Positions 11,875-41,027 of a stretch of 64,000 bases of DNA are shown piece after piece. This stretch comes from Tahibacter aquaticus (lineage in GTDB: Bacteria > Pseudomonadota > Gammaproteobacteria > Xanthomonadales > Rhodanobacteraceae), in contig NZ_SNZH01000001.1 in the NCBI RefSeq assembly GCF_004363655.1, positions 396,451 through 460,450 of the forward strand, given 5' to 3'. The notes beneath the pieces are model-generated. The model worked only from the letters and a program-made list of their open reading frames with translations. It was not told where the DNA came from and ran no database searches. The translations under genes were made by a program, and so were the position numbers. Position 1 is the first letter of the stretch; the number at the start of each line of letters is the position of its first letter.

Positions 11875-11895
11875 TTGATTTACGTTTGAAATCAA
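11875..11895. promoter_or_regulatory. Second inverted repeat in the regulator leader
   Basis: TTGATTT and AAATCAA arms (7 bp, perfect) flank a 7-base centre, about 95 bases upstream of the LacI-type operator. It lies in an AT-richer stretch and could be another regulator site or part of the promoter. No known regulator is assigned. Confidence 0.35.
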
Positions 11896-11898
11896 AAG

Positions 11899-12060
11899 TG
11901 TATCGCGCGCCTTCGGCGCGCTCGTTACTTCTCTTCGGGTGGCCAAAGAGAAGTAGCCAAGAGAAAGCCACCCCAGATGCCGCGGTTTTGGGCCATCCAT
12001 GGCCCAAAACTCCGCGAGACACTCCGGCGGTCCGCGCACGGGACATCCATGGCCACGACC
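11899..12060. repeat. Palindrome-rich intergenic repeat
   Basis: Three nested inverted repeats are visible: a GCGCGC/GCGCGC hairpin near 11906-11921, a perfect 10-bp repeat (TACTTCTCTT at 11926-11935 with its complement at 11946-11955), and a perfect 12-bp palindrome (GTTTTGGGCCAT at 11985-11996 with its complement at 11999-12010). I recall similar sequence (GGCCAAAGAGAAGTAGCC) between genes in many Xanthomonadales, where it is often mis-annotated as short proteins. Confidence 0.6.
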
Positions 12061-12230
12061 CTGCGGGCCTTTCCCTCGTGTCTCGCCGCCGCATATGGGG
12101 CCCCGGATGGGCGCACTTCCTGCGTGCAGAAGCAACGGCTACAGCCAAAGCGAAATCACCAGCCGCAGCCGCAGCGCCCATATCGTGCTGCGCAGCTCGC
12201 TGCTTTAGCCCTCTCCCCCAAGCCTGGGGA

Positions 12231-12351
12231 AGAGGGTTAGGTGAGGGGGCCGGCGGTCAAGTTGGTGCCAGCGCAAGGTTCTTGCCGACGCCAAACGCTT
12301 CGCGTCGATCAGGCCGATTGGTGCAATTCGCTGCGCTCATCGCACCCTACG
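12231..12351 (+). repeat. Dispersed intergenic repeat A, copy 1
   Basis: About 120 bp that align, on the opposite strand, with 46281-46400. Shared blocks include GGCGGTCAAGTTGG and GATCAGGCCGATTGGTGCAA, followed by a CGCTCATCGC.CCCTACG end. Just upstream, CCCTCTCCCCC and GGGGAAGAGGG form a hairpin (12209-12236). Both copies lie between genes. No coding potential is seen. Confidence 0.8.
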
Positions 12352-12452
12352 ATCACGTTTTGCCCTTGCAGCAAAGTATGCTCGCGGGATATGGAACACA
12401 TAATGCACTTGTGCACCGTGTTTCAGAATGGACGCCCGCACTTTCGCCACGG

Positions 12453-12632
12453 TCAATGCAGGCGGCACTCTCCTGCACGCTGGTCCCAGGCCCCGCCCCT
12501 GTCGAGACAGGCATCGACACGGAACCAGCGCCAGGTCCAGGCAGCTCCCAGGTATAGACATCCGCTCAGGACCAGCACAAGAACAACGGCAACTGCAACA
12601 GGGAAGTTCCGCTGGCGTGGCAGCGCTTTCAT
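12453..12632 (-). CDS. Small single-span membrane protein or lipoprotein with Cys pair, unknown function
   Basis: A 59-residue protein. After a basic N-terminus (MKALPRQR) comes one hydrophobic segment at about 11-32; LSGC at 22-25 could act as a lipobox. The short tail has the pattern CLDRGGAWDQRAGEC (42-56), whose two Cys could form a disulfide if the tail is periplasmic. Small proteins with a C-x2-GG-x-W/Y-x-C pattern are common hypotheticals in proteobacteria. The gene begins 14 bases after the nadE stop on the same strand, so the two are probably cotranscribed. Function unknown. Confidence 0.6.
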   Translation of the reverse strand: MKALPRQRNFPVAVAVVLVLVLSGCLYLGAAWTWRWFRVDACLDRGGAWDQRAGECRLH

Positions 12633-12646
12633 GGCTTGCCCGCGCC

Positions 12647-14278: not shown

Positions 14279-14377
14279 GGCTTACCAGCGGGTGCGCAAA
14301 GGTGCCGAATCATAGCCCAGGCACCACGCAGCGACGGCGGGTCTGCCCTGCCGCGCGCCGGGTAGCCAGGCCACACA

Positions 14378-14403
14378 GGCCCGCGGCAACAGAGCCGCGG
14401 GCC
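14378..14403 (-). terminator. Hairpin terminator after the secreted repeat protein
   Basis: A perfect 10-bp stem, GGCCCGCGGC with its complement, encloses a 6-base loop and lies 12 bases after the stop of the minus-strand gene that ends at 14415. Only a weak T-containing tail follows on the minus strand. It separates that gene from nadE. Confidence 0.55.
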
Positions 14404-14414
14404 TTTGCCTGGAC

Positions 14415-25432: not shown

Positions 25433-28400
25433 ATGTCCGAAGGGGAACGCGCACCGCGCTGGCTCGGGCCGGCTGTGCTCTTTGTTTTTGCTCTGTCCGG
25501 GTGCTCGGGGCTGATCTACCAGTCGATCTGGTCCAAGTATCTGGGGTTGTACCTGGGCCATGCGGCCTATGCGCAAAGCCTTGTCCTCGCTATTTTCATG
25601 GGCGGCATGGCAATCGGTGCCTGGTGGGCGAGCAAGCGCAGCTTGAGCTGGCTGAACCTGCTCCGCGCGTACGCAGTGATCGAGCTGATCATCGGTCTGG
25701 CGGCGGTCCTATTCCATCCGATCTATCAGTCGCTGACGACTTTCGCCTACGACACGGGCTTTGCCGCCCTGCCCGGTCCATTGTCCGTACAGTTGTTCAA
25801 ATGGGGCAGCGGCGCGCTGCTGATCCTGCCGCAATCGATCCTGCTCGGCATGACGTTCCCGCTGATGAGCAGTGCCCTGATGCGACGGCTGCGCGTCGGC
25901 GATGGCGCCGTGCTCGGTGGCCTGTATTTCACCAACAGCATCGGCGCCGCGTTCGGCGCTTTGTTCGCGACATTCGTACTGCTGCCGACGATCGGCCTGC
26001 CGGGCGCAATGCGCTTTGGCGCCGGACTCAATCTCGTGGTCGCCCTGGCCGCATTCCTGCTGGCACGCAAACCCGAACTGCCACTGCCGCCCGAACCTTC
26101 GGTCACTCGCGATCAGACTGGCGTGGCCCGCGTGCTGCTCGCAGCTGCCTTCATCACCGGCGCAACCTCGTTCGTCTACGAAATAGGCTGGGTGCGCATG
26201 CTCAGCCTCGTCTTCGGCAGTACCGTGCATGCCTTCGAGTTGATGCTGGCAGCCTTCATCGGCGGCCTGGCTTTTGGCGGCCTATGGATCCGTAAACGCA
26301 TTGATGGCTATGCCTTCCCGATCCGCGTCGGCGGCTGGGTGCAGATCTTCATGGGTCTGGCCGCACTGCTGAGCCTTGTCTTCTATGACCACGCATTCGA
26401 CGGTGTCGCCTGGTATATGCGCGCGCTGGCACGTACGCCCAGCGGCTACGATCTCTACAACGTCGCCACGGCAGGCATATCCATCCTGCTGATGGCACCA
26501 GCGGCATTCTTTGCCGGCATGACGCTGCCGCTGTTCACTCTCAGCCTGATCCGGTCTGGCGCCGGCGAAGCCGCGATCGGACGGATCTACGCAGCCAATA
26601 CCATCGGCGCCATCGTCGGCGTTTTCGCCGCAGTACATCTGATGATTCCGTTTCTGGGCCTCAAGCTCGCCATGATCGCCGCAGCAGCGGGCGATCTGGT
26701 GCTCGGCCTTGTCTTGCTGCGCCGCGAGACGCGATCGGCGCAAAGGCCAGACGGCAGCTATCTGGGGGCGCTCGCGCTGTGCGGCATAGCCCTGGTCGCC
26801 ACGTTGCTGTACGCGCGCTTCGACCCGGCGGCGATGGCTGCCGGTGTCTATCGCACCGCCATTGCACGTCTGTCGCCCGATGAGAAAGTGCTGTTCTATC
26901 GCGACGGGAAAACCGCCAGCGTCTCGATCCGCGCCAACCCGCTGGGCCTGCGCTCGATTTCCACCAACGGCAAAGTCGACGCAGCAATCCGCGTTGCCGA
27001 AGACGGCAAGCCGGCGCCCGACGAAATCACCATGGTGATGGCTGCCGCACTACCGCTGCTACACCATCCGAATCCGCGAACTGCGGCAGTTATCGGCTTC
27101 GGTTCCGGCCTGTCCACCCACACTATGCTAGGTGACTCGCGCCTGGAACGCGTCGATACGATCGAGATCGAACCGGCGATGATCGAGGCGGCAAAAGCCT
27201 TCGGCAAATACGTCGAGCGTGCCTATAACGATCCGCGGTCGCATTTTCACATCGAAGATGCACGCACCTATTTCTCCGCCAACAGATCGAAGTACGACAT
27301 TATTCTGTCGGAGCCGTCCAATCCCTGGGTGTCGGGCATAGCAAGCCTGTTCAGCGAAGAGTTCTATGACTTCGTACCGCACCATCTGGCACCGGGTGGC
27401 CTTCTTGTGCAATGGATACAACTGTACGAGATCAACGATGAGCTGGTCGGCTCGGTGGTACATGCCCTGTCGAAGAATTTCGCCGACTATCGCGTATACC
27501 TTTCCTACAATTCCGACATGCTGATCGTCGCCCGTGCCGACGGACCGGTCGGCGACCTCAATCCCGAACCCCTGCTGTCGCCAACGCTGCGCCCAGGACT
27601 GTCGCGTCTGAACATCGATACCGTTCCCGACATCCTGTCCCACCAGATCGGCGACCGGCGCTCGTTCAACAGCCTGTTCGCCGCGCTGTCGCGCCGGACC
27701 AATTCCGACTACTACCCGCACCTTTCGCTGGAGGCGCCGATTGCGCGCTTCACCAGCGACGCTGCAACCACGCTGACCCAGCTTTCATCGGCAGACCTGC
27801 CTTACCGTGAAGTACTGGTAGGCCTGGCACCTCCGTCAAGCAAGGAAATCGTCAAGGACAACACGTCTTTTTCCTACTCCGACGCCGTGCATTTCGTCTC
27901 CGACGTCGCCACAATGCTGCGCAAGGGAGGCGCACTGGAAGCGGCGGGCAACAATGCCGAAGCGATTGCCTACCTACGTTACGCCGTTGGCGAGTGTCAG
28001 GTCGGCAAAGACACCGAACAGGCAATGGAAAACCTGGTGCTCGTCGCTGGGCGTACGCTGCCGCTGCTACCCTTGGAGGAACGCAAGGGAGTATGGATCG
28101 ATCCGGAGTGGATCCACTGCAACACCCAGCCGCCGGTCGTACGCCTGCTGCTGGATACGATTGCCGCGCTGGCCGTTCGCGATGGCGCCACGGTGAAGCA
28201 GAAAGCCAGCGAACTGCTGGCGAACAAAGCCGAAGTACGATCGGTGATCGTTCGCGACTGGCTGTTGCGCGCGGCAATGCTCGGTGCGGTGGATGCAAAG
28301 GACTATCCGGGGGTTCTCAAACTACAGGAACTCTACGGCAGCGATCCCGACGTGAAGCGCAACGTGCCCTATCGTTACTGGACCATCAATCGCTCCCAGG

Positions 28401-28447
28401 AACTGCAGGGCATGCAGCCGGCGAAGCCGCATAGCGAGACGGAATAG
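25433..28447 (+). CDS. Membrane-fused spermidine-synthase-like protein
   Basis: A 1004-residue protein. Residues 1 to about 470 carry a dozen or so hydrophobic segments in two similar halves; LSGCSGLIYQSIWSKYLGL near 21 and ATSFVYEIGWVRMLSLVFG near 243 are equivalent. Residues about 480-780 form a methyltransferase-fold domain: the SAM-binding-like loop VIGFGSG is near 553 and SEPSNPWVSG near 625. In true spermidine synthases the latter position holds an Asp of a DSSDP-type motif, so aminopropyl transfer is doubtful. The last 220 residues have helical repeats. MSEGE is preceded by GGGAG. Fusions like this are widespread but uncharacterised; its place between tfpX and pilA suggests a pilus or surface-glycan role. 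Confidence 0.75.
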   Translation: MSEGERAPRWLGPAVLFVFALSGCSGLIYQSIWSKYLGLYLGHAAYAQSLVLAIFMGGMAIGAWWASKRSLSWLNLLRAYAVIELIIGLAAVLFHPIYQSLTTFAYDTGFAALPGPLSVQLFKWGSGALLILPQSILLGMTFPLMSSALMRRLRVGDGAVLGGLYFTNSIGAAFGALFATFVLLPTIGLPGAMRFGAGLNLVVALAAFLLARKPELPLPPEPSVTRDQTGVARVLLAAAFITGATSFVYEIGWVRMLSLVFGSTVHAFELMLAAFIGGLAFGGLWIRKRIDGYAFPIRVGGWVQIFMGLAALLSLVFYDHAFDGVAWYMRALARTPSGYDLYNVATAGISILLMAPAAFFAGMTLPLFTLSLIRSGAGEAAIGRIYAANTIGAIVGVFAAVHLMIPFLGLKLAMIAAAAGDLVLGLVLLRRETRSAQRPDGSYLGALALCGIALVATLLYARFDPAAMAAGVYRTAIARLSPDEKVLFYRDGKTASVSIRANPLGLRSISTNGKVDAAIRVAEDGKPAPDEITMVMAAALPLLHHPNPRTAAVIGFGSGLSTHTMLGDSRLERVDTIEIEPAMIEAAKAFGKYVERAYNDPRSHFHIEDARTYFSANRSKYDIILSEPSNPWVSGIASLFSEEFYDFVPHHLAPGGLLVQWIQLYEINDELVGSVVHALSKNFADYRVYLSYNSDMLIVARADGPVGDLNPEPLLSPTLRPGLSRLNIDTVPDILSHQIGDRRSFNSLFAALSRRTNSDYYPHLSLEAPIARFTSDAATTLTQLSSADLPYREVLVGLAPPSSKEIVKDNTSFSYSDAVHFVSDVATMLRKGGALEAAGNNAEAIAYLRYAVGECQVGKDTEQAMENLVLVAGRTLPLLPLEERKGVWIDPEWIHCNTQPPVVRLLLDTIAALAVRDGATVKQKASELLANKAEVRSVIVRDWLLRAAMLGAVDAKDYPGVLKLQELYGSDPDVKRNVPYRYWTINRSQELQGMQPAKPHSETE

Positions 28448-28644: not shown

Positions 28645-28660
28645 TGGCACGGAAGCTGCT
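28645..28660 (+). promoter_or_regulatory. Sigma-54 promoter of pilin gene
   Basis: TGGCACGGAAGCTGCT matches the -24/-12 consensus with the essential GG and GC exactly 10 bases apart and the full TGGCACG at -24. The predicted transcript starts near 28671. This is the expected target of PilR, encoded 4 kb upstream. Confidence 0.8.
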
Positions 28661-28780: not shown

Positions 28781-29320
28781 ATGAAGATGATCAACAAGGG
28801 CTTCACCCTGATCGAACTGATGATCGTGGTCGCGATCGTTGCGATCCTGGCCGCCATCGCGCTGCCGGCCTATCAGGACTACACCGTCCGCTCGAAGATC
28901 TCGGAAGGCCTCGTCGGCGCCAGCGCCGCCAAGGTGTCCGTTGCCGAAGGCTTCCAGTCCGGCGGCGCCGTTGGTCTTGCTGCTGCGGCTGAAGCCTACA
29001 AGGTAGCGAACACCGCGACCTCGTCGAAATATGTTCGTGAAATCAATATCGACGCCGTCACCGGCATGATCACGTTCATCGTCGAAGCCAACGCCAACAA
29101 CGGTATCCCGGCTGGCGAAGCTGGCAAGATCCTGACCTTCACCCCGTACGCGATGGGCCTGGGCGCTGGCGCTGGCAAGGCACTGAGCGATCCGGACGCC
29201 CGTGGTTCGATCGACTGGGGCTGCGGTTCGCAGACCTCGAAGACCGCAACGGCTCGCAAGCTGACCCCGCAGGTTCCCGGCACCCTGACGCCGAAGTACG
29301 CGCCGTCGGAATGCCGTTGA
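28781..29320 (+). CDS. pilA: Type IV pilin, major subunit candidate
   Basis: A 179-residue prepilin with a short leader MKMINKG cut before Phe and the conserved [20 protein letters not shown] helix with Glu5. The globular domain ends in a Cys pair (DWGCGSQ near 147 and APSECR at the C-terminus) that would enclose the disulfide loop. AGAGGATT precedes the ATG, a sigma-54 promoter lies upstream and a strong intrinsic terminator follows 48 bases after the stop, so this gene has its own transcription unit, consistent with the abundant major pilin. PilD, encoded 16 kb downstream, should process it. Confidence 0.93.
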
Positions 29321-29367
29321 TACCTTGCGAAATCCCGCTCTGTTGAGCTGGGGCAAAGGAACTCAGG

Positions 29368-29394
29368 AGCCCCGCAACTGCGGGGCTTCTTTTT
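29368..29394 (+). terminator. Intrinsic terminator after the first pilin gene
   Basis: An 8-bp GC-rich stem (AGCCCCGC and complement) with loop AACT is followed directly by TCTTTTT. It is a textbook rho-independent terminator, placed between the two pilin genes, so the second pilin depends on read-through or its own promoter. Confidence 0.9.
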
Positions 29395-29479
29395 AGGAAG
29401 CGAGATGCGCCGACATATGTGCATCTTTGCACTGCGCTACGTCATTGGCGCGACTCTGACCGACCCACGGGGGGCCGTG

Positions 29480-30004
29480 ATGAAAACTGCACGTGGATTC
29501 ACCCTGATCGAACTGATGATCGTGGTGGCGATCGTCGCGATCCTGGCCGCTATCGCCCTGCCGGCTTACCAGGACTATACGATCCGCGCCAAGATGTCTG
29601 AGGGCTTCGGCGCCGCGTCAGCCGTGAAAGTTGCTGTGGCATCGGCATTTTCGTCGGGTGGCCCCATCGCCGTCGCTGCGGTGGCTTTGCAGTATCAGCC
29701 CAACAACACGGCCACCAGCAGCAAGTACCTCCAATCCATCGAAGTATCCGATGAAGGGGTCATTACTGCTGTTGTCGAGGCCAATGTCAACAACGGCCTG
29801 CCAATCAGCCTTGACGCAAACAGGTTCACCCTGACGCCACAGCTGGCCACGAGCAACGGCGTCTACACGCCGCTCGATATCAGCCTGTCCGGGCGCATCG
29901 ACTGGGCTTGCGCTTCTGCCAGTCACCTTGTCGCGCAGCAGCGCGGCATGATTTTCACTCCCGGGACCATGCCGTCGAAGTACCTGCCGGCCGAGTGCCG
30001 CTGA
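29480..30004 (+). CDS. Second type IV pilin
   Basis: A 174-residue prepilin with leader MKTARG before [20 protein letters not shown]. It is nearly identical to the first pilin over the first 30 mature residues and diverges afterwards, keeping [10 protein letters not shown], the DWACAS Cys and the terminal AECR Cys. The ATG was chosen over upstream starts because the leader then has normal length. It follows the terminator of the first pilin, and I saw no clear sigma-54 site of its own, so it may be a lower-expressed alternative or minor subunit arising by duplication. Confidence 0.9.
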
Positions 30005-30093
30005 GAAGATCGACCTCCAGTCATCGCATCGGGGCATTCCAGCACAAGCATCGCTCATTGCTGTCACGCTGCATAAGCCATTAGGCTGCAGCG

Positions 30094-32010
30094 ATGATCA
30101 TTTCTCGAAATCTATCCTGGGCCCCGCGCTTCTTTCTGCTCGGCCTGGCTGCTACCTGCTTCGTCTACTGGCAGGGACTGTACGGCGACTGGTTTTTCGA
30201 CGACACACCCAACATTGTTAGCAACACGGATTTGCAGCCCCAGCAGGTGGACACGGCCAGCCTGCTGAACGCTGCGCTTTCGTCGCCATCGAGCACACTG
30301 AAGCGGCCGCTCGCCTCGTTGAGTTTCGTCGCGAATTATCTGCTGGGCGGGCTGGCTCCTTTCGGCTGGAAACTTACCAACCTCGCTATTCATCTTCTCA
30401 ACGGCTGGCTCGTTTTCCTGCTCGGCATACGCCTGCTTGCCCTGGCACGACAGCGCAGCCGCACCGCCTGCGCGCAACCCGAAATGGCGGCAGCGCTGAT
30501 CGCCACCGGCTGGCTGCTGCTGCCGGTCAACGTGTCGGCGGTATTGCATGTGGTTCAGCGCATGGAAATGCTGGCAAATCTGTGTGTACTGGCAGGGCTG
30601 TTGGGTTACGTGATCGGCCGCCAGCGCATGATCGACGGCGAAAATGGTTTTCGGCTTTGCGCAGCCAGCGTGATCGGAGGAGTGCTGCTTGGCCTTGCCT
30701 CCAAGGAAACGGCCATCCTGCTGCCGCTCTATGCCGTGCTGCTTGAGTACCTGCTGCTACCACGCGCGCAAACGCCAGACCGGCAGTTGGCCTGGCTATT
30801 CGGCCTGACGCTGCTGCTACCGGCACTGGTCTGTGCCACAGTGCTGCTGCCTTGGCTGGCGAATCCAGCCACCTGGGCGAGTCGCGAGTTCAGCCTGTCT
30901 ACGCGGCTGCTGAGCGAAGGGCGAATCGTGCTGGACTACCTTGCCTGGATTCTGGTGCCAGCGCCGCACGCGCTGTCGTTCCATCACGACAATTTCCAGA
31001 TTTCGACCGGCTTGCTGAGCCCGTGGACTACGCTGGCCAGTTTTCTGGCATTGGCCGCGCTGGCGGCGCTGGCCTGGCACTACCGCGAGCGCCGGCCTCT
31101 GCTGGCGCTCGGCATTGCCTGGTACTTTGCCTGCCACCTGCTCACCAGCACGGCGCTGCCGCTTGAGTTGATTTTTGAACATCGCAACTATTTCGCCAGC
31201 TTTGGCATTCTGCTGGGCGGTGTGCCGCTGCTGCTCGACGCGGCGCTGCCACTGCTACGCGTGCGCCAGGCCCTGCTGGGGATACTGTTGCTATGGTGGG
31301 GCGGACTGACCTTCGCCACGACCTACGCCTGGGGCGACAGCATGCGACTGGCCGCGGAACTGGCGCTACGCGCGCCCGATTCCGCCCGCGCCCAGACCAG
31401 CCTTGGTGCCGAGTTGCTTTGGCGGGCAAATTTCGATCAAGCTTCTCCGCTGATGACCGAAGGCTATGCACTGCTCGAACAGGCTCGCCTGATGCCGAAA
31501 TCATCGACCCGGCCCGAGCAAGTGCTGATCTTTACCAATGCCATGCTCAAACGAGAACAGGACGCCATCTGGTGGCAAAGCCTGATCGACAAGCTGCGCC
31601 GGCGCGCGCCCAGCGCGGAGGACATCAGCGCGCTTGCGGTCCTGACCCAATGTGCGCGCTCGCGCCAATGCGACCTGCCACAGGAACACATGCGTGCCGC
31701 ATTCGAAGCCGCAGAAAGTCACGGTCAGCGCAACGCGCGCGTGCTGGTCATCCATAGCGACTACGCCTGGAACGTACTTGTCGATCGGCCACTGGCGCTG
31801 GCGTTGACCGTCCAAGCCATCGACATCGATCCCGGCGACAGCGATTCACGCATCGCGCTCGCGCGCATGCATCTGGTGTTGGGGCAGAACGATCAGGCAC
31901 GGCTGCAGCTGCGCGCCCTGGAACGGCTCAATCGCATGGGCCGCCTCGACCGACCCATCGCCGAATTGCGCAAACTGATCGAGTTGCGCAGCCAGGCAGC
32001 GAGATCCTGA
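30094..32010 (+). CDS. GT-C-like membrane protein with C-terminal repeat region (candidate pilin glycosyltransferase)
   Basis: A 638-residue protein with about ten to eleven hydrophobic segments through residue 420. The first luminal loop has DWFFDDTPNI, an acidic cluster resembling the loop of GT-C/TMTC-type lipid-linked sugar transferases, and a later loop has LVNVSAVLHVVQRMEM-like sequence. The C-terminal 200 residues are helical and TPR-like (RALALTVQAIDIDPGD). It starts 89 bases after the second pilin on the same strand. By position it is a good candidate for a pilin O-glycosyltransferase (PilO/TfpO role), but it lacks a recognisable Wzy/PilO signature and the acceptor is unproven. Confidence 0.55.
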   Translation: MIISRNLSWAPRFFLLGLAATCFVYWQGLYGDWFFDDTPNIVSNTDLQPQQVDTASLLNAALSSPSSTLKRPLASLSFVANYLLGGLAPFGWKLTNLAIHLLNGWLVFLLGIRLLALARQRSRTACAQPEMAAALIATGWLLLPVNVSAVLHVVQRMEMLANLCVLAGLLGYVIGRQRMIDGENGFRLCAASVIGGVLLGLASKETAILLPLYAVLLEYLLLPRAQTPDRQLAWLFGLTLLLPALVCATVLLPWLANPATWASREFSLSTRLLSEGRIVLDYLAWILVPAPHALSFHHDNFQISTGLLSPWTTLASFLALAALAALAWHYRERRPLLALGIAWYFACHLLTSTALPLELIFEHRNYFASFGILLGGVPLLLDAALPLLRVRQALLGILLLWWGGLTFATTYAWGDSMRLAAELALRAPDSARAQTSLGAELLWRANFDQASPLMTEGYALLEQARLMPKSSTRPEQVLIFTNAMLKREQDAIWWQSLIDKLRRRAPSAEDISALAVLTQCARSRQCDLPQEHMRAAFEAAESHGQRNARVLVIHSDYAWNVLVDRPLALALTVQAIDIDPGDSDSRIALARMHLVLGQNDQARLQLRALERLNRMGRLDRPIAELRKLIELRSQAARS

Positions 32011-32049
32011 TGGCTTGCACCGCGAGCCTTCCTGGGGAACGTCCGGCAT

Positions 32050-32078
32050 CTTTCGCAACGATACGTCGTTGCATCTCG
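32050..32078 (+). repeat. Dispersed intergenic repeat B, copy 2
   Basis: 29 bp matching 22813-22841 with three mismatches, in the same orientation. This copy contains an internal inverted repeat GCAACGA/TCGTTGC. It lies in the 258-bp gap before the GT2 gene, where no other feature was recognised. Confidence 0.7.
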
Positions 32079-32268
32079 CGGCCTTGGCAATACTGCATCG
32101 CTTGCACTCGCCCGGTCTCGCGACGAAACCCGTCCGGAAATTCTTTGCGGCACGGCGAAACAGAAAAGTAGAAATCCACCGAGTACGCCGGAACTGGACT
32201 TTTCCGACGACTGCAATGCGAGCACCGGCCTTCGCTATCATCCGGCATCGATTTCCCATTTGTCACTC

Positions 32269-33150
32269 ATGAGTCCTGCCGTGCCGCCATCAGATCTACC
32301 GCTGATCAGCATCGGGTTACCGATCTATAACGAGGCACGCTTCATCGACGCCACGCTGGCGTCGCTGCGGGCGCAGGATTATCCGAACCTGGAAATCATC
32401 GTCTCCGACAACGCTTCGACCGACGGCACCTACGCCATCTGCGAAGCCCACGCCCACACCGACCCGAGGCTGCGGCTGGAGCGCGCCGCAAGCAATCGCG
32501 GCGCGACCGAGAACTTTCTCCACGTGCTAGACCAGGCTCGCGGCGACTTTTTCATGTGGGCCGGCGGCCACGATCTATGGACGCCCAATCTGGTGTCGGC
32601 CTGCCTGGAGCGACTGCGCTCGCATCCGCAGGCTGATCTCGCCTACGCATCTTCCTGCTGGATCGACGCCGATGCCAAGCCGCTGGCGCGCGAATCGGGC
32701 TATGCCGACACTCGAGGTCTGGCGCCGCTGGCCCGCTTCTTCACGGTTTTCTGGGGCAACATGCACCCGATCATGGGGCTGATGCGCCGACGCGCCATTC
32801 TCGAGTGCGGCAGCATGCCCGCTATGGTCGGCGGCGACCTCGTATTGCTCTCACGTCTGGCCTTGCGCAGCGAATTCCTCCATGCAGAAGGCGCGATCTG
32901 GTATCGGCGCGAATTCCGCGTCGAGCGCGACCACGCCGACAAACTACGCCGCTACGCTTCGGCCGAGACACGCATCGGCACCGGCACGCTGACGCGGCGT
33001 TTTCCGCTCGTCGCGCTTCCACTGGCCCTGGTACGCAGCGTACTTGCCGCCGACCTGCCGGCGCTGGACAAGCTGGTCGCGTTGCTCGCCCTGCCAGCCG
33101 CGTTCGTTGCTCGCTACCGCGTGGGCCGCCAGCGCGTTCCGGACGCCTGA
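32269..33150 (+). CDS. Family 2 glycosyltransferase
   Basis: A 293-residue GT-A-fold enzyme. It opens with LISIGLPIYNEARFID and SDNASTDGTYAICE, the nucleotide-sugar binding start of GT2. The usual DxD position reads FMWAGGHDLW (near 100), so the metal-binding pair is altered to HD. It probably adds a sugar to a lipid-linked or protein-linked glycan. The ATG at 32269 was taken over the TTG nine bases earlier. Its stop overlaps the next ATG (TGATG), so it is coupled to the flippase-like gene. Confidence 0.85.
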   Translation: MSPAVPPSDLPLISIGLPIYNEARFIDATLASLRAQDYPNLEIIVSDNASTDGTYAICEAHAHTDPRLRLERAASNRGATENFLHVLDQARGDFFMWAGGHDLWTPNLVSACLERLRSHPQADLAYASSCWIDADAKPLARESGYADTRGLAPLARFFTVFWGNMHPIMGLMRRRAILECGSMPAMVGGDLVLLSRLALRSEFLHAEGAIWYRREFRVERDHADKLRRYASAETRIGTGTLTRRFPLVALPLALVRSVLAADLPALDKLVALLALPAAFVARYRVGRQRVPDA

Positions 33151-34082
33151 TGTACGCGGATGCGGCGCGACGCTGGCTTGCCCGGCTGCAAGCCGTAGCC
33201 ACACCGCTCGCGCTGGTGTTCCTGGTTGCGGTCACCTGGAGCGCGCGCGATACGCTCGCCCAGACGTGGCGACAGTCCAACCTCTACGTGCTGCTCGGAC
33301 TACTCCCCCTATGGGCGGCACTCCACCTGCTCACGCCTGTGTATGCACACCTGCTGCTGCGCCTCGATGGCCTTCCATTACCGTATGCAACGGCGCTGCG
33401 CATACATGTGGCGCGGCTACCGGCGCGCTATCTGCCCGGCGGGCTTTGGCATACGGTGACGAAGGCCGCCGATTTCAGCGTTCTCGGCGTCGCCAAGGAA
33501 AATTTGACGCTTTTAGTATTCCTGGAAAACCATATTCCGTTCGCGCTCGCGCTGACGCTTGGCAGTGCCGCCTTGCAGATATCCAATGGCGCCACTGCAC
33601 CGCTCGCGACGGGACTTGCGCTCGGCTTGCTCCTGCTCGCGCTGCCACCGCTGGCGCTGAATCGGCTGGCGCCGCTCGCCCACCTGCGCCTGGGATGGCG
33701 TCGCTACACCGCCCTGCTGGTCGTCAGCAGCGTGTTCTGGTGCGTCGCTGCAGGCACCTTTGCATCGTACTGGCATGCATTCGAACTGCCAGCGCATGCA
33801 CCTCTGCAAATCGCTGGCAGCTACCTCGTATCCTGGGCGCTGGGTTTCGCTGCAGTCGTCGCTCCACAGGGTATCGGCGTGTTCGAAACATCGATCGCGC
33901 TGCTGCTGAACGGCAGCACGCCACTCGCCCGCCTGCTGGCAATGGCGGCGGGCTTTCGAGTGTTCTGCCTCGTCGCCGATCTGCTCGTCTATGCGCTGTA
34001 TCTGGTGTGGCGTTGCTTCGACGCCGTGAGGCTCAGGCCGGCCCAGAACGACGGCGAAGATAGCCGCCGGTCGCCACCGTGA
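33150..34082 (+). CDS. UPF0104/LPG-synthase-TM-domain membrane protein (flippase-like)
   Basis: A 310-residue integral membrane protein with about eight hydrophobic segments. LPARYLPGGLWHTVTK near 90 and APQGIGVFETSIALLL near 234 match the pattern of the lysylphosphatidylglycerol-synthase transmembrane family (AglD/UPF0104). Members often sit with GT2 genes and may move or modify lipid-linked sugars. Its last 50 bases overlap the end of the convergent hydroxylase/methyltransferase-like gene. Confidence 0.78.
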   Translation: MYADAARRWLARLQAVATPLALVFLVAVTWSARDTLAQTWRQSNLYVLLGLLPLWAALHLLTPVYAHLLLRLDGLPLPYATALRIHVARLPARYLPGGLWHTVTKAADFSVLGVAKENLTLLVFLENHIPFALALTLGSAALQISNGATAPLATGLALGLLLLALPPLALNRLAPLAHLRLGWRRYTALLVVSSVFWCVAAGTFASYWHAFELPAHAPLQIAGSYLVSWALGFAAVVAPQGIGVFETSIALLLNGSTPLARLLAMAAGFRVFCLVADLLVYALYLVWRCFDAVRLRPAQNDGEDSRRSPP

Positions 34083-34782
34083 TCGCTATCTGCGCCTCCA
34101 GTGCAGTATCCACTTCGAACTCCGGGTGGGTCGCGAGGAACTGTGCAACCGCGGTCTTGGGATTGTTGCCCACGTCCCAGGGCCGCTCCGGGTAGCGCCC
34201 GGCAGGAAGATCCTCGATCACCGTGTCGAACACCACGCAGTAGCTGCCGGCGCCAACCAGCGGCGTGTAAGCGTCAAGCTCCGCAAGCACGTGCTCGTGC
34301 GTGTGATTCGAATCAAGCACGACCAGAACGTTCTTGCCGCGCGCGCGCTCGTGCACCTGGGCCACAACCATCGGATCGACACTGGAGCCCTGCAGCAACC
34401 CAATGCGGCGGAACATGGGATGGGCTTCGATGGCAGCACGATTGTGCGCGCGAATATCGATGTCGATACCCAGCACCTCGCCGTGGCCCATCAGCTCGCA
34501 CAAAGACGCGTAGAAGATCAGCGAGCCGCCGTGAGCAATGCCGGTTTCGACGATCAGATCGGGGCGCACCTGCCAGAGTATCTGCTGCATCGCGATCATA
34601 TCTTGCGGATACTGGATGATCGGCCGGCCCATCCAGGAAAAATTGTAGGAATAGCGGTGCGGCAGGCTCGCTTCCAGCCACTGGCTGGAAAGCTGGCGCA
34701 AGTGCTCGTCCTGGCGCAAGCCGTCGATATTGCGCGCGACTTCCTGCTGGAAATCGGCGAGGGGGTCTTTGTCGTTGCTCAT
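34033..34782 (-). CDS. CmcI/cephalosporin-hydroxylase-family protein, probable sugar O-methyltransferase
   Basis: A 249-residue protein with a Rossmann-like methyltransferase core: VETGIAHGGSLIFYASL near 77 is the SAM-binding loop and VLVVLDSNHTHEHVLAEL near 150 is the family signature. Despite the name, several members of this family act as O-methyltransferases. It is the last gene of the CDP-sugar operon and so may methylate a sugar hydroxyl. The ATG at 34782 lies 7 bases after the acetyltransferase stop. The 3' end overlaps a convergent gene by 50 bases. Confidence 0.75.
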   Translation of the reverse strand: MSNDKDPLADFQQEVARNIDGLRQDEHLRQLSSQWLEASLPHRYSYNFSWMGRPIIQYPQDMIAMQQILWQVRPDLIVETGIAHGGSLIFYASLCELMGHGEVLGIDIDIRAHNRAAIEAHPMFRRIGLLQGSSVDPMVVAQVHERARGKNVLVVLDSNHTHEHVLAELDAYTPLVGAGSYCVVFDTVIEDLPAGRYPERPWDVGNNPKTAVAQFLATHPEFEVDTALEAQIAITVATGGYLRRRSGPA

Positions 34783-34789
34783 GGCTGCA

Positions 34790-35428
34790 TCATGCCTGGG
34801 AATGCAAACGGGCGGGACTTCCGATAACGACGCTGCGCGGTGCGACATCCCGCGTGACGACAGCGCCAGCGCCCACTACGGCATCCGCGCCGATCTGGCG
34901 GCCCGGCAGCACGATCGCGCCAGCACCGACGAACGCACATTCGCCAATACGAACCTCGCCCGCAAGCACGGCGCCGGGGCCGATGTGCGCGCCGTCGGCG
35001 ATCTCGCAGTCGTGATCCACAGAAGCAGCCGTGTTGACGATCACGCCTCGCCCCAGGCTCACATGACTGCACACAGCCGCCATCGCCAGCACCTGACAGG
35101 CTTCGCCGCAATGCGCGTCGGCGGCAAGGAATGCGCGCGCGTGGATTGCGCCCAGTAAGGAAAACCCCAGCGATGCGAGTTGATCCATGCGCGCAAGGCG
35201 ATCGCGTCCGCGGGCACCGCCGATCGCGACCGCTGCATGCAGCCCTTCCACGCCACTGCGCGCGGCCAGCCATCGCTGCAAACCGTCTTCGCCAACCAGC
35301 ACGGGCACGCCGGCGAAGGGCGAGGGCAGTGCCCGGCAATCAACGACAGCAAGCAGCTCGATGCGCGATCCCAGCGCTTCGCGCAACACCTTGGCCTGGC
35401 CGGTCCCACCCCAGAAGATGGTCTTCAC
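34790..35428 (-). CDS. Sugar O/N-acyltransferase of the NeuD/PglD type
   Basis: A 212-residue enzyme. The N-terminal third is a small Rossmann-like domain (FWGGTGQAKVLREAL) and the rest is a left-handed beta-helix of hexapeptide repeats (for example GPGAVLAGEVRIGECAFVG), as in PglD and NeuD. PglD-type enzymes acetylate the 4-amino group of UDP-linked sugars; next to an aminotransferase gene, N-acylation of a CDP-linked amino sugar is the natural inference. Its ATG overlaps the aminotransferase stop. Confidence 0.85.
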   Translation of the reverse strand: MKTIFWGGTGQAKVLREALGSRIELLAVVDCRALPSPFAGVPVLVGEDGLQRWLAARSGVEGLHAAVAIGGARGRDRLARMDQLASLGFSLLGAIHARAFLAADAHCGEACQVLAMAAVCSHVSLGRGVIVNTAASVDHDCEIADGAHIGPGAVLAGEVRIGECAFVGAGAIVLPGRQIGADAVVGAGAVVTRDVAPRSVVIGSPARLHSQA

Positions 35429-36540
35429 GGCCGCAGCTGCGCGATCACGTGGCGGGCGACGCGGACGATATCGGCATCGCGCATGTCGTGGTAGCTGGGC
35501 AGATTCAGCGCGCGCCGCGACAGCGAATGGCTGATGCGGTGCTGCGGCCGCGGCGTGAACATCGGCAGGCTGGACAAAGGCCAGAAGAACACCCGCCCAT
35601 CGATATTGTCGGCCTTGAATGCGGCGAGGAGTTTTTCCCGGTCGAAATCCGCATCGTCGTCGACCACTATGGTCGGCATCCAGTAGCCATTGCGCGTACC
35701 CGATGGCTCTGGATTCATGCGCAGGGGCAAGCCGGACAGCAACTCCGCGTAGCGTTCGAAGATGTCCCGCTTGCGCGCCACGAGTTCCTCTACCCGCTCG
35801 GCCTGGGCACAGCCAATGGCCGCCTGCAGATTGGACATCTTGTACTTGTAGCCGATGCGCTCGGGCCAGAACTGGCGCGTTTCGCCGCGCGCACGTCCGT
35901 GGTTGGACAAGGTCAGCACGCGTTCGTACAGCGCGTCGTCGTCGGTCACGAAGATGCCGCCCTCACCGGCAGTGAGCGTCTTGGTGCCGTGGAACGAGAA
36001 CGCGCCGAATACACCCAGCGTACCGGCGCGACGGCCGTGCCAGGTGGAACCCAATGCTTCGGCGGCATCTTCGATCAGATGCAGGCCGTGACGCTGTGCA
36101 ATCGCGTACAAGGCGTCCAGCTCGCACAGGTTTCCGTACAGATGTACTGCGAGAATCGCTTTCGTACGCGGCGTGATCGCGGCCTCGACCGCGGCCGGAT
36201 CCAGACACCAGCTGAACGCATCGACATCGACCAGCACCGGCGTTGCGCCGAGATGCACGATAGGGGCAGCCGAGGCGATCCAGTTGATGTCTGCCAGGAT
36301 GACTTCGTCGCCCGGGCCTATGCCCAGCGCCGCCATGCCCAGATGCAGCGCACCGGTGCCGCTGGCCGTTGCGATAGCGTGGCGCGAACCCAGGTGCTCG
36401 CGGAACAGTGCCTCGAAGCGATGAATATAGTCGTAGCAATGCTCGCCCCAGCCGTTCGCGGCGGCATCGGCTGCATACGCCGTCTCCCGCGGGGTGATCG
36501 ACGGCTTGGTGTAGTAGATACGTGAGGCCATGGCAGTCAT
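35425..36540 (-). CDS. DegT/DnrJ/EryC1/StrS-family sugar aminotransferase
   Basis: A 371-residue PLP enzyme. Lys187 in SFHGTKTLTAGEGG is the PLP Schiff-base lysine and Asp158 (IEDAAEA) contacts the pyridine nitrogen, so this is a true aminotransferase and not a CDP-6-deoxyglucose dehydratase (E1/RfbH), which has His at the lysine position. It should install an amino group, most simply at C4 of a 4-keto-6-deoxysugar. ATGA overlaps with both neighbours tie it into the operon. An internal ATG nine bases later is a possible alternative start. Confidence 0.9.
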   Translation of the reverse strand: MTAMASRIYYTKPSITPRETAYAADAAANGWGEHCYDYIHRFEALFREHLGSRHAIATASGTGALHLGMAALGIGPGDEVILADINWIASAAPIVHLGATPVLVDVDAFSWCLDPAAVEAAITPRTKAILAVHLYGNLCELDALYAIAQRHGLHLIEDAAEALGSTWHGRRAGTLGVFGAFSFHGTKTLTAGEGGIFVTDDDALYERVLTLSNHGRARGETRQFWPERIGYKYKMSNLQAAIGCAQAERVEELVARKRDIFERYAELLSGLPLRMNPEPSGTRNGYWMPTIVVDDDADFDREKLLAAFKADNIDGRVFFWPLSSLPMFTPRPQHRISHSLSRRALNLPSYHDMRDADIVRVARHVIAQLRP

Positions 36541-37760
36541 GACACGACGATTTCCGGTACGGCAATGACGAAACGCGCCCCCCAGTCACGGGCATAGGCC
36601 AACTGCGCGGTGATTTCCTCGCGCAGATTCCAGGGCAGGATAAGAATCAGGTCAGGACGATCCTCGCGCAGGCGCGCCTCGCCAACGACAGGAATGCGCG
36701 ATCCCGGCAGGTAGCGCCCCTGCTTGTGCGGCGAGGCGTCGACGACGTAGGGCAGCAGGTCGGAACGTACACCCGCATAGTTGAGCAAGGTATTGCCTTT
36801 CGCCGCAGCCCCATAAGCAGCAACGCGCAAGCCGCGGCGGCGCTGCTGCAGCAGAAACTCAAGCAAACCGTGCTTGACGGCGTCGGCTTGCTGCTGGAAA
36901 TCGCGGTAGTAGTCTGCTTGCGGCACGCCGACAGCCGCTTCGGCCGCACGCAGCGCCGCTACCGAACCGAGTTCGCTGCGCGTGTCCTGCACATGCGTGG
37001 CCCAGATTCGCAGCGAACCGCCATGCGTCGGCAAATGCTCCACGTCCCAGATACGCAGGCCGTGGGCAGCCAGCACGCGCTCGACCGTATAGAACGAGAA
37101 ATAGGAAAAATGCTCGTGATAGACCGTATCGAACTGCCGCTGGGCAACCAGCTGAACCAGATGCGGAAACTCCAGCGTCACGCTTCCGCCGTCGGCCAGG
37201 GCCAGCGCGATTCCGGCGACGAAGTCGTCGAGCTCGGGCACATGGGCCAGCACGTTGTTGGCGATGATGAGATCGGCCCTGCCGCGTTGCGCCACGAAAT
37301 ACTCGGCGAAACGGCGGCCGAAAAACTCGACTACCGTGTCTATGCCCCGCGCGCGTGCCGCTTCGGCGGTACCCAGGGTCGGCTCTATGCCGACGCAGGG
37401 TATGCCACGCGCAGCCACGTACTGCAGCAGGTAGCCGTCGTTCGATGCAATCTCGACGACCAGGCTGCCCGCGCCCAGCCCCAACCTCGGCACCGCCTGG
37501 TCGACGTAACGCCGGGCATGCTCCAGCCAGGAACGGGAATAGGATGAAAAGTACACATAGTCCGGCGCAAACAGATTTGCCGCGGATTGCACCTCGTCGA
37601 CCTGGACCAATCGGCAGGCGTCGCAGACATAGAGCTTGAGCGGAAACCAGCTTTCCGGTTCGTTCAGCGCTGCCGCGTCGAGAAACGCGTTCGATGGCGG
37701 CGCGCTGCCCAGATCGAGAAATACCTGTTCCAGCACCGTGGCACAGTGACGGCAGTTCAT
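36537..37760 (-). CDS. Sugar C-methyltransferase (NovU/TylCIII type)
   Basis: A 407-residue enzyme. The N-terminal zinc-binding domain has Cys residues in MNCRHC (3 and 6) and VCDAC (46 and 49). The SAM-dependent domain starts at about 85 (VVEIASNDGYLLQYV), and a C-terminal domain carries the HEHFSYFS and YGAAAKGNTLLN motifs typical of deoxysugar C-methyltransferases. Such enzymes methylate C3 of 4-keto-6-deoxy nucleotide sugars. ATGA overlaps on both sides. The longer frame upstream is out-of-phase epimerase sequence. Confidence 0.88.
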   Translation of the reverse strand: MNCRHCATVLEQVFLDLGSAPPSNAFLDAAALNEPESWFPLKLYVCDACRLVQVDEVQSAANLFAPDYVYFSSYSRSWLEHARRYVDQAVPRLGLGAGSLVVEIASNDGYLLQYVAARGIPCVGIEPTLGTAEAARARGIDTVVEFFGRRFAEYFVAQRGRADLIIANNVLAHVPELDDFVAGIALALADGGSVTLEFPHLVQLVAQRQFDTVYHEHFSYFSFYTVERVLAAHGLRIWDVEHLPTHGGSLRIWATHVQDTRSELGSVAALRAAEAAVGVPQADYYRDFQQQADAVKHGLLEFLLQQRRRGLRVAAYGAAAKGNTLLNYAGVRSDLLPYVVDASPHKQGRYLPGSRIPVVGEARLREDRPDLILILPWNLREEITAQLAYARDWGARFVIAVPEIVVS

Positions 37761-38317
37761 GGCGCAAGTCCTGCAAACTGGGCGTCCAGCAGCGCTGCCG
37801 TCGCGTCCCTGGCGGAAACCTGCACAGGTGGCAGCGGCCAGGCGATGTCCAGGCTCGGATCGTCGTAGCGCAGCCCGCCTTCGTGCGCCCGGCTCCAGCG
37901 CGCCGTGTGCAGGTACAGCATCTGCACATCGTCGCTGAGCGCCTGAAAGCCGTGGGCAAAACCCGCCGGTATGAAAACCTGCAGCGACGATAACGCGTCC
38001 AGCTCGACCGCATGCCAGCGCAGGAAGGTGGGCGAGCGCGCGCGCAGATCCACCGCCACATCGAACACGCGGCCGCGCAGGCAGCGAATCAGCTTCGCAT
38101 CGGCCGCCGGCGGATACTGGAAATGCAGGCCACGTACACAGCCGCGCTGGCACGTCTCTGAAAGGTTTACCTGTGGAAAATGTAATCCAGCCTGCAGTGC
38201 GGACAGTTCGTCCTCGCAGAAGATGCGGCTGAAGCGGCCGCGCGTATCGCTGACGCTGCCGCTTTCGATCACGGTCAGGCCGGCCAGTGGGGTCGGATGC
38301 AGGCGCGCCGGATTCAC
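37757..38317 (-). CDS. RmlC-like nucleotide-sugar epimerase with altered active site
   Basis: A 186-residue cupin of the dTDP-4-dehydrorhamnose 3,5-epimerase family, started at a GTG in a GTGA overlap with the dehydratase. RGLHFQ with the catalytic base His65 and FIPAGFAHGF are intact. However, the segment that in RmlC reads D-Y-Y and carries the catalytic tyrosine is A-R-W here (R140, W141; LHTARWSRAHEGG). The enzyme may therefore epimerise only one carbon or use another acid. The following GLRYDDPSLDIAWP is normal. It should act on the CDP-4-keto-6-deoxyglucose produced by the upstream gene. Confidence 0.82.
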   Translation of the reverse strand: MNPARLHPTPLAGLTVIESGSVSDTRGRFSRIFCEDELSALQAGLHFPQVNLSETCQRGCVRGLHFQYPPAADAKLIRCLRGRVFDVAVDLRARSPTFLRWHAVELDALSSLQVFIPAGFAHGFQALSDDVQMLYLHTARWSRAHEGGLRYDDPSLDIAWPLPPVQVSARDATAALLDAQFAGLAP

Positions 38318-39402
38318 GCCGCCACGGCCCAGGCGAGACCGCCGTGCCGCGCTGCGGCAATGTAGTCGTACAGATCGGCGCGGCTGCGCAACTCGCCCTG
38401 GCGATACCAGGCGCGATACCAGTCCATGGTGCGGGCGATGGTCGTCGCCGCATTCCATACCGGCTGCCAGGCCAGTTCGCGCGCCGCTTTGGAACAGTCC
38501 AGGCGCAGCACTTCGGCTTCGTAGGGCTGCCCCGGCTCGGCCGCCGCCAGCTGCAGGCCGGGCCAATGCGTAGCCATCCGGGCCACCAGCGCCGCCACCG
38601 GCAAGGTTGCGTCGGCACCAGGGCCGAAATTCCATTCGCCTTCGCCGCTACCGCCGAGCAGGGCCTGGCCCAGGCACAGGTAGCCCGACAGCGGCTCCAG
38701 CACATGCTGCCAGGGTCGGATCGCCTGCGGCCGGCGCAGCTGCAACGGCTGGCCGGCTTCCAATGCACGCACCAGATCCGGCACCAGCCGGTCCTGCGAC
38801 CAGTCGCCGCCGCCGATCACATTGCCCGCGCGCGCCGTCGCCAGCAGCGGCCGCTCCGCACCGGTGCCGCTGAAGTAGCTCTTGCGATAGCTGGCCGTGA
38901 TCAGTTCGGCACACGCCTTGGACGTGCTGTAGGGATCGTGCCCGCCCAGCGCATCGTCTTCGCGATAGCCGCCAGTGTCGTGGCGTTCGAGGTAAACCTT
39001 GTCGGTAGTCGCGTTGACCAGCGCTTTTACCGCGGCACAGCCGCGCACCGCCTGCAGCAGATGAACCAGACCCAGTACATTGGTTTCGAAGGTCTCGACC
39101 GGTTCCGCATAGCTGCGCCGGACCAATGCCTGGGCGGCCAGATGGAATACCAGTTCGGGCTGGAACGCATCGATGGCCGCGGCCACTGCCGTGCGGTCGC
39201 GCAGATCGGTGCGGCGGCAGTCGACGCCGTGCAGATTCAACAAATCCCAATGTGAAGGATGCGTATCGGCATCCAGCGCCAGCGCGGCTACATCGGCACC
39301 CAGTTCACGCAGCCAGAGGCACAGCCACGACCCCTTGAAGCCCGTATGCCCGGTTACGAGTACGCGCCGGCCGGCATAGATGCCGGCAAACAGGTCTTTC
39401 AC
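38314..39402 (-). CDS. rfbG: CDP-glucose 4,6-dehydratase
   Basis: A 362-residue short-chain dehydrogenase. It starts at a GTG in a GTGA overlap with rfbF; the longer frame upstream is spurious. The NAD-binding loop [10 protein letters not shown] is at 17-26 and the catalytic YxxxK is Tyr158-Lys162 (DPYSTSKA), preceded by [16 protein letters not shown] is characteristic of the CDP-glucose branch. It makes CDP-4-keto-6-deoxy-D-glucose, the common precursor for CDP-linked deoxysugars. Confidence 0.93.
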
Positions 39403-40169
39403 GGCCAGACTTTCCACGGCGCGGCACCGCTGTTCCAAAGCTCTTCCAGCCGCGTCTTGTCGCGTACCGTGTCCATGGGCTGCCAGAAACCGGCATGCGT
39501 ATACGCCGAAAGCTGGCCGTCACGGGCCAGTGTCTCGAGCGGGCCGCGCTCCCACACGGTTTCGTCGCCGCCGATATAGTCGAGCACCCGCGGCTCGAGT
39601 ACAAAGTAGCCACCGTTGATCCAGGTGCCGTCGCCCACCGGTTTCTCGCTGAAGCGCGTGATGCGCATGCCGTCGATATCGAGCGCACCGAAACGGCCCG
39701 GCGGCTGTACGGCGCAAACCGTGGCCAGGCAGTTCTGGCTGCGATGGAACGCCAGCTCGGCGCCGATATCCACATCGGAAACGCCGTCGCCATAGGTGAA
39801 GCAGAAGGTCTCGCCATCCAGGTATTCGGCCACTCGGCGCAGGCGTCCGCCGGTCTGGGTGTGTTCGCCGGTATCGACCAGGGTGATGCGCCAGGGCTCG
39901 GCGTGCTTGTGGTGCACATCCATGCTGTTGCTGCGCAGGTCGATGGTCACATCGGACATATGCAGGAAATAGTTGGCGAAGTACTCCTTGATCAAATACC
40001 CCTTGTAGCCAAGGCAGACGATGAAGTCGTTGATACCGTGGCTGGAGTAGATCTTCAGGATGTGCCACAGGATCGGCTTGCCGCCGATCTCGATCATGGG
40101 CTTGGGACGCAGATGGGTTTCTTCGGCGATGCGCGTGCCCAGGCCGCCGGCGAGGATGACAGCTTTCAT
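39399..40169 (-). CDS. rfbF: Glucose-1-phosphate cytidylyltransferase
   Basis: A 256-residue nucleotidyltransferase that makes CDP-glucose from CTP and glucose-1-phosphate. The N-terminal motif [20 protein letters not shown] and the following [14 protein letters not shown] are diagnostic for RfbF. With rfbG directly downstream (GTGA overlap) it commits sugar to the CDP pathway. It is nine bases from the upstream GT2 gene. Confidence 0.95.
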
Positions 40170-40178
40170 GGGCGGATC

Positions 40179-41027
40179 TCAGCCATCGCGCCGGTAGGTC
40201 AACGCCGTGATCTGTTCCGACACCAGGCCGATCAGGAACACGATGACGGCAGCACTGAACAACAACGCGCTCATGTTGGTGAAGCGGTGCTGGGTCAGGA
40301 AGGTGTAGCCGTAGTAGCAGCCGCCCAGCATGAAGAACGCCAGGCTGGTCGGCAGGAACAGCTTGAGCGGCGAATACAGCGTTGCGATCTTGAAGATGAT
40401 CAGCAGGAAGCGCACCCCGTCGCGCAATGGGCGCAGGTGACTTTTGCCGATGCGCTTGGCCACGGCAATCGGCTCGAACGCGATCGGATATGCGCTGCGG
40501 CAGAAAGCCATGGTGCTGGTCGTGGGGTAGGAGAAACCGTTGGGCAGCAGGTGCAGGAATTCGCGGAACCTGTCGGCGCGGACGGCGCGAAAGCCCGAGG
40601 TGAGATCCACGATGCGCAAACCCGTCATCCAGCTGGCCAGCCGGTTGTACAGCGCATTGGCCAGTCCTCGCCCGACGCCGGCCTGCCCCGACCAGTCGCG
40701 CGCGCCGACCACCATGTCGTAGCCCTGCTCCAGGCGTGCCAGCAGCCGCTCGATATGCGCCGGATCGTGCTGGCCGTCGGCATCCATGAACACGATGATG
40801 TCGCCGCGGGCGGCGCGGGCACCGCGCTTGATTGCAGCGCCATTGCCCATCGAGTAAGGCGAGGACACAACGCGGGCGCCGGCGGCAAGCGCCACGGCAG
40901 CAGTGTCGTCGCTGGAACCATCGTCGACGACGATGATCTCGTCGTCGGGCCGCGCCTGACGCAGGCGCGGCAGCACGCCCTGCAATGCCGCGGCTTCATT
41001 CTTGGCAGGCAGGACGATACTGATCAC
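40179..41027 (-). CDS. Membrane-anchored family 2 glycosyltransferase (DPM1/GtrB type)
   Basis: A 282-residue enzyme started at a GTG with AAGGA five bases upstream; the longer open frame upstream is not supported. The GT-A core has SIVLPAKNEAAAL, IIVVDDGSSDDT and the metal-binding DADGQHD. Two hydrophobic segments at the C-terminus (LAFFMLGGCYYGYTFL and ALLFSAAVIVFLIGLVS) resemble GtrB-type enzymes that load a sugar onto undecaprenyl phosphate. It heads the minus-strand CDP-sugar operon and could attach that sugar or another to the lipid carrier. Confidence 0.87.
   Translation of the reverse strand: MISIVLPAKNEAAALQGVLPRLRQARPDDEIIVVDDGSSDDTAAVALAAGARVVSSPYSMGNGAAIKRGARAARGDIIVFMDADGQHDPAHIERLLARLEQGYDMVVGARDWSGQAGVGRGLANALYNRLASWMTGLRIVDLTSGFRAVRADRFREFLHLLPNGFSYPTTSTMAFCRSAYPIAFEPIAVAKRIGKSHLRPLRDGVRFLLIIFKIATLYSPLKLFLPTSLAFFMLGGCYYGYTFLTQHRFTNMSALLFSAAVIVFLIGLVSEQITALTYRRDG

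Follow-up and report, generated by a model that had tools for sequence, protein, structure and literature searches.

A predicted pilin O-glycosylation locus of Lysobacterales with exchangeable glycan cassettes, holding a putative kansosamine-type sugar module in Tahibacter aquaticus

Why do genes for a branched amino sugar lie between the type IV pilin genes and pilB? The question is raised by positions 28781-41027 of a 64,000-nucleotide stretch (hereafter the window) of the 7.27 Mb genome of Tahibacter aquaticus. Our answer, which we hold at a probability of roughly 0.7, is that this is a type IV pilin O-glycosylation locus of Lysobacterales whose middle part is an exchangeable glycan cassette, in this strain for a cytidine diphosphate (CDP)-activated kansosamine-type sugar. 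Judged by gene content, the sugar is most likely made here and attached to the pili, and the wider finding would be a pilus locus found across the family, with glycan cassettes swapped within it. The gene arrangement is not a product of chance, because it recurs across the family and its sugar module recurs across phyla.

Gene calling and Pfam/NCBIfam scans recovered, at the same positions, every gene that a first-pass annotation had placed between the pilins and pilB. On the plus strand, two type IV pilin genes (28781-29320 and 29480-30004; PF00114 and PF07963 in both), whose products are the presumed glycan acceptors, are followed by a gene for a 638-aa protein predicted to join a C-type-fold glycosyltransferase (GT-C) or oligosaccharyltransferase to C-terminal tetratricopeptide repeats (TPRs; 30094-32010), by GT2a, a cytoplasmic GT2 glycosyltransferase (32281-33150; PF00535), and by a membrane protein with a predicted MprF-flippase fold (33150-34082). 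The minus strand then carries rfbF, rfbG, and genes for an epimerase, a C-methyltransferase, an aminotransferase, an acyltransferase and an O-methyltransferase, together with the last gene of the block, GT2b (40179-41027), which adjoins pilB and points away from it. The constant flank follows as pilB (41493-43154, plus strand; PF00437, PF05157), pilC and pilD, and pilS-pilR lie upstream of the pilins. The second pilin was called from 29405, and 29480 is the more likely start. The closest named relative among the loci compared, Tahibacter harae (L106), matches at 88% for the aminotransferase, 94% for GT2b and 92% for PilB.

What sugar would the minus-strand genes make? The glucose-1-phosphate cytidylyltransferase RfbF (39399-40169; TIGR02623, 472.3 bits, cut-off 300.25), whose gene is single-copy in the genome, and the CDP-glucose 4,6-dehydratase RfbG (38314-39417; TIGR02622, 442.7 bits, cut-off 278.45) both exceed curated NCBIfam cut-offs, as does the NeuD/PglB/VioB-type N-acyltransferase (34790-35428; TIGR03570, 165.1 bits, cut-off 160.8). 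The RmlC-type 3/5-epimerase (37757-38317; PF00908) scores 147.7 bits, slightly short of the TIGR01221 cut-off of 155.75, and its best solved relatives are RmlC structures. The best solved relatives of the C-methyltransferase (36537-37760; PF08421, PF08484) are the sugar 3-C-methyltransferase 5t64, the D-mycarose 3-C-methyltransferase 4rv9, and TcaB9. The DegT-family aminotransferase (35425-36531; PF01041, 400.6 bits) falls under all NCBIfam equivalog cut-offs; its best solved relative is perosamine synthetase, which we take to be a 4-aminotransferase. The O-methyltransferase (34033-34782; PF04989, 305.5 bits) belongs to the CmcI/rhamnosyl O-methyltransferase family, with a score of 100.1 against the NCBIfam rhamnosyl O-methyltransferase cut-off of 400. 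Motifs that we take to be typical of their families are present: GxxGxxG and YxxxK in RfbG, YxEH and two CxxC in the C-methyltransferase, and HGTKT with Lys184 in the aminotransferase. By family or nearest solved relative, then, the enzyme set for a CDP-kansosamine-type sugar is complete. A CDP-3,6-dideoxyhexose of the ascarylose or abequose type was rejected: the sole DegT enzyme of the block scores 176.5 against an RfbH cut-off of 423 and keeps its pyridoxal phosphate lysine.

In the pathway that we propose, RfbF would turn glucose-1-phosphate into CDP-glucose and RfbG would turn this into CDP-4-keto-6-deoxyglucose; the epimerase would invert C5 (and/or C3), giving the L series, and 3-C-methylation, 4-transamination, N-acylation and O-methylation, perhaps at O-2, would follow in that order. 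The end product should be a CDP-4-acylamido-4,6-dideoxy-3-C-methyl-hexose with an O-methyl group, that is, a CDP-activated kansosamine-type sugar. It is probably L-configured: by established pathway logic, C3 is set by enolate methylation, and an RmlC-type enzyme would then mainly be needed for C5 inversion. The first-pass annotation had predicted the same sugar, with the O-methyl group as a perhaps, and the prediction holds as far as gene families can carry it. We take this composition to be that of N-acylkansosamine from the lipooligosaccharide (LOS) of Mycobacterium kansasii, reportedly discovered in 1984; to our knowledge, kansosamine-type sugars come solely from mycobacterial glycolipids. 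The pilin may instead carry another final sugar, one that is D-configured, lacks the O-methyl group or is differently acylated, or a longer glycan that the predicted sugar caps. Epimerase and methyltransferase positions are unreadable from sequence, and the acyltransferase genes vary (a similar N-acyltransferase is found in 22 of the 80 module loci described below, with other genes in its place elsewhere). This version fits all the data, with nothing decisive against it, and we regard it as possible, at well under even odds.

How would the sugar reach the pilin? By sequence, family scans gave weak TPR matches only for the 638-aa protein, and a comparison with PDB sequences gave no convincing match. 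Foldseek with the whole predicted model placed mainly TPR proteins on top, with an oligosaccharyltransferase chain at rank 17 (E 0.012). A second structure comparison with the predicted model assigned residues 1-440 to an oligosaccharyltransferase/PMT/ArnT-type fold. The modelled fold thus resembles the GT-C enzymes Stt3/PglB, Pmt4 and ArnT, which depend on dolichol phosphate or undecaprenyl phosphate; its identity to them is 8-15%, and at its C-terminus the window protein bears TPRs where they have other domains. Eukaryotic TMTC proteins have a similar domain order, a GT-C membrane domain followed by TPRs; the window protein is bacterial and linked to pilins.

A rival reading is a Gtr-like system, in which a GtrB-like GT2 makes a lipid-linked sugar that is flipped and then added by the GT-C enzyme to lipopolysaccharide (LPS) instead of pilin. 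GT2b, which its solved-structure matches place among ArnC-like or dolichol-phosphate-mannose-synthase (DPMS)-like polyprenyl-phosphate glycosyltransferases, does match 5eke (listed as sll0501; presumably GtrB) at E 7.4e-9, and the GT-C protein would suit the third role. The flippase family differs, however: among nine homologues of the MprF-fold protein no GtrA match was listed at E <= 0.1, PF03706 was found in six at E up to 0.1, and the structure match is to MprF (TM-score 0.60). Since the pilin neighbourhood is constant as well, we rejected a GtrABC-type LPS modification and rate the Gtr-like reading as very improbable. Under the pilin-glycosylation reading, GT2b would put the first sugar on polyprenyl phosphate and GT2a would add the kansosamine-type sugar, or the two would act the other way round. 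The MprF-fold protein would then flip the glycan on its lipid carrier, for transfer to Ser/Thr of the adjacent pilins by the GT-C/TPR enzyme.

GT-C homologues were found in 128 of 147 genomes of the family. Forty loci (L039-L078) were picked for holding a GT-C gene, and the window proteins were then mapped on them; the recurrent order is pilin, GT-C, variable sugar cassette, GT2 and pilB. A pilin match lies upstream of GT-C in 37 of the 40 (none in L040, L073 and L075), GT2b is seen in 35, and in every one of the 31 with pilB, GT2b lies between GT-C and pilB. The absence of GT2b or pilB is partly an effect of where contigs or fetched stretches end (L050 and L060 are short; L061, L067 and L076 are cut at the edge); L055 and L058 have neither gene in the fetched stretch, and L041 has GT2b without pilB. 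Two GT-C matches stand in tandem after the pilin in 29 of the 40 loci, and one in the window; the tandem paralogues perhaps serve two sugars or two acceptors.

Between these flanks the sugar genes change. The CDP module lies between GT-C and GT2b in eight of the 40 loci, five of them with the window-type aminotransferase. L044 has a pseudaminic acid set in the cassette position (6309-14937), with PseB, F, G, H and I above cut-offs, and L066 has clustered homologues of these genes; a nonulosonic acid may therefore decorate pilin in other members of the family. The cassette of L056 encodes UDP-galactopyranose mutase (a galactofuranose function), with clustered homologues in L074 and L078; L074 also encodes a PglK-like ABC transporter, short of the PglK cut-off, and further cassettes encode Wzx-type flippases. 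Even within the genus the cassettes differ: G050 (L042) shares the module of the window, G065 and G103 (L057, L202) have a version that lacks the aminotransferase and acyltransferase, and G079 (L059) has a different cassette. The pil-locus CDP modules of L057, L077, L202 and L203 all lack these two genes and may make a neutral branched sugar; in the first three a second, distant C-methyltransferase-like match stands in their place.

The two GT2 enzymes behave differently across these cassettes. GT2a (at >= 45% identity), with its membrane partner, was found in four of the eight CDP-module loci and none of the 32 others, and this confinement suggests that GT2a acts on the CDP-sugar. GT2b is constant across cassettes and for that reason more likely loads a first sugar that they have in common; this is the least certain step of the model.

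A mirror-tree analysis used 19 of 41 rows (the window and 18 loci), those in which all four genes were called, leaving out 22. Distances of the pilin correlate with those of GT-C (r 0.56), also after correction for PilB (0.56, p 0.0002), and GT2b follows PilB (r 0.70); partial correlations are weak between GT2b and pilin (0.19, p 0.08) and between GT-C and GT2b (0.19, p 0.03). These correlations indicate that GT-C and the pilin evolve together and that GT2b goes with the chromosome.

Is the sugar nonetheless an LPS component? The first-pass annotation had named an O-antigen role as the main alternative. In this reading the sugar belongs to the O-antigen or LPS core and the pil locus is no more than the place where its genes lie. 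Alternatively, it is produced for LPS and pilin receives it too, as with TfpO, which uses O-antigen units. Several observations speak against it. No Wzx- or Wzy-type Pfam family was found among the 11 block proteins (E <= 0.01), and the GT-C transferase tracks the pilin. The C-methyltransferase occurs in 21 of the 147 family genomes (E <= 1e-90), within 10 kb of a GT-C match on the same contig in 19 (eight of these, G009, G051, G052, G067, G081, G095, G106 and G125, on their distance from the GT-C match only), and the remaining two are at the pil locus on fetched contigs, giving 21 of 21. With its position thus fixed beside GT-C and no Wzx/Wzy family in the block, we rejected an O-antigen locus as the leading interpretation.

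The distribution of the module outside the family favours the LPS reading more. Of 398 genomes sampled from the phylum, 14 hold relatives of the aminotransferase (E <= 1e-100), our own genome among them: eleven at >= 62% identity and three at 50-53%. A scan of GTDB genomes gave at least 557 relatives, and the best 80 were taken as module loci (four overlap the GT-C loci: L106 is L042, L111 is L073, L113 is L061 and L122 is L048). Among these 80, at set identity thresholds, the epimerase was found in 78, the C-methyltransferase in 77, RfbF in 70, and RfbG and the O-methyltransferase in 68 each; 58 hold all five together with the aminotransferase. The module is thus common and coherent, and the first-pass description of such CDP-linked amino sugars as rare did not hold. 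Relatives also occur in cyanobacteria and rhizobia, and in two Nitrospira loci RfbF and the O-methyltransferase were the only members found with the aminotransferase. The 18 loci at 74-88% aminotransferase identity (L106-L123, of which L112, titled Eremiobacteraeota, and L116, Comamonas, are metagenome bins) all have one or more of pilin, GT-C, pilB and pilC, and none of the remaining 62 has any. The 19 pil-locus rows, with the window among them, group as one clade in a maximum-likelihood tree of 81 aminotransferases (support 99/93, and 99% of 200 bootstrap trees), a pattern consistent with one recruitment event at the pil locus; orthologues outside this clade lie in CDP-sugar clusters without pil genes. 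In L107, L108, L113 and L117 (at about 11.1-14.4 kb) four other genes, by eye a PhyH-type oxygenase, a methyltransferase, a GNAT and a WbqC-like protein, replace the NeuD-type acyltransferase between the aminotransferase and the O-methyltransferase, which suggests different N-acyl arms.

Several points weigh against pilin glycosylation as we propose it. The module, being without pil genes in 62 of 80 loci, is not pilin-specific in itself, and Wzy_C-family proteins, three above cut-off, occur elsewhere in the genome, so a parallel use of the sugar in LPS is possible. The pilin glycan is a prediction from genes, the 40 loci were selected for GT-C presence, no GT-C match reached E <= 0.001 in the Foldseek search taken by itself, and GT2b, the same across cassettes, may load another sugar. 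Neighbour linkage, together with the two GT-C paralogue classes, could produce the co-divergence. Taking both sides together we consider the LPS reading unlikely, and pilin glycosylation remains our preferred reading; the pilus link suggested in the first-pass annotation holds up within the reach of sequence evidence.

Known systems offer partial parallels. TfpW of Pseudomonas aeruginosa group IV is described as a GT-C pilin glycosyltransferase adding D-arabinofuranose, and pilin accessory genes there come after a terminator 3' of the pilin gene (PMC11841053). The window likewise encodes a GT-C transferase next to a pilin, a likeness by description only, and has a terminator-like stem-loop with a T-run 3' of the first pilin (29365-29394, plus strand), a reading by eye that was unlisted in the scan. 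It differs from the TfpW system in its CDP branched amino sugar cassette, its TPR tail and the DPMS-like GT2 by pilB. The published gene table of the M. kansasii LOS cluster gives a DPM-synthase-like GT2 (MKAN27435), a glucose-1-phosphate cytidylyltransferase (27440), an NAD epimerase/dehydratase (27445), a rhamnose epimerase (27450) and a methyltransferase (27475), all without an M. marinum orthologue (PMC4403928). Compared with that table only, this is the gene order of the window, and by analogy these CDP genes may make kansosamine, with a glycolipid as acceptor, unlike in the window. The authors considered the extra transferases to be probably for fucose and N-acyl kansosamine; against our analogy, they tied MKAN27435 to glucose or fucose, and no aminotransferase appears in their table (PMC4403928). 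For Xanthomonas vasicola, of the same order, horizontal exchange at the pilA locus is described, in a section that deals with pilA sequence types and, unlike our locus, no sugar cassettes (PMC4235730). In the part of the open-licence literature surveyed we found no description of a window-type locus or of a kansosamine-type pilin glycan, and no paper on the biosynthesis of a CDP-linked 3-C-methyl-4-amino sugar. The predicted sugar itself, however, has a precedent in the N-acylkansosamine of M. kansasii LOS (PMC4403928), a correction to the first-pass reading.

We note some further features. Plasmids of Brachyspira hyodysenteriae (H3-H8) carry aminotransferase relatives at about 56% identity, and a published gene table of one such plasmid lists rfbF and glycosyltransferases; the plasmid search with the aminotransferase gave eight records, none mycobacterial. 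Between pilSR and the pilins lies a gene (25433-28447) for a membrane protein of 1004 aa that has a spermine-synthase-like domain, and it is pilin-adjacent in several relatives too. A possible sigma-54 promoter lies upstream of the first pilin (28645-28660, plus strand), a match to TGGCACGNNNNTTGCW with one mismatch; it is the sole such match in the window, where 1.22 are expected by chance, and so a weak candidate. The sigma-70 promoter scan was uninformative (one match against 2.6 expected), and Rfam and tRNA scans gave no match. Codon scores of the 11-gene block are low (mean 0.256, against 0.421 for the 35 other scored window genes; p 0.0004), which hints at cassette exchange, and faintly so because neighbours such as the second pilin score low too.

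We lean slightly towards a more specific picture, a 'pilus serotype' locus of Lysobacterales in which a DPMS-like GT2 by pilB would be constant, a fast-diverging TMTC-like GT-C/TPR protein would co-evolve with the pilin, and whole cassettes would be exchanged between them: kansosamine-type, as for the pilin sugar of this strain, a variant without amino-sugar genes, pseudaminic acid, and galactofuranose. Pilin glycans of P. aeruginosa help to evade pilus-specific phages (PMC11841053). The locus would also open a workable way to a CDP-linked 3-C-methyl-4-amino sugar, and would suggest a function that can be tested for part of the LOS genes of M. kansasii. If whole cassettes are indeed swapped while the flanks stay constant, this would account for the diversification of pili in an order that spans environmental bacteria, plant associates and pathogens.

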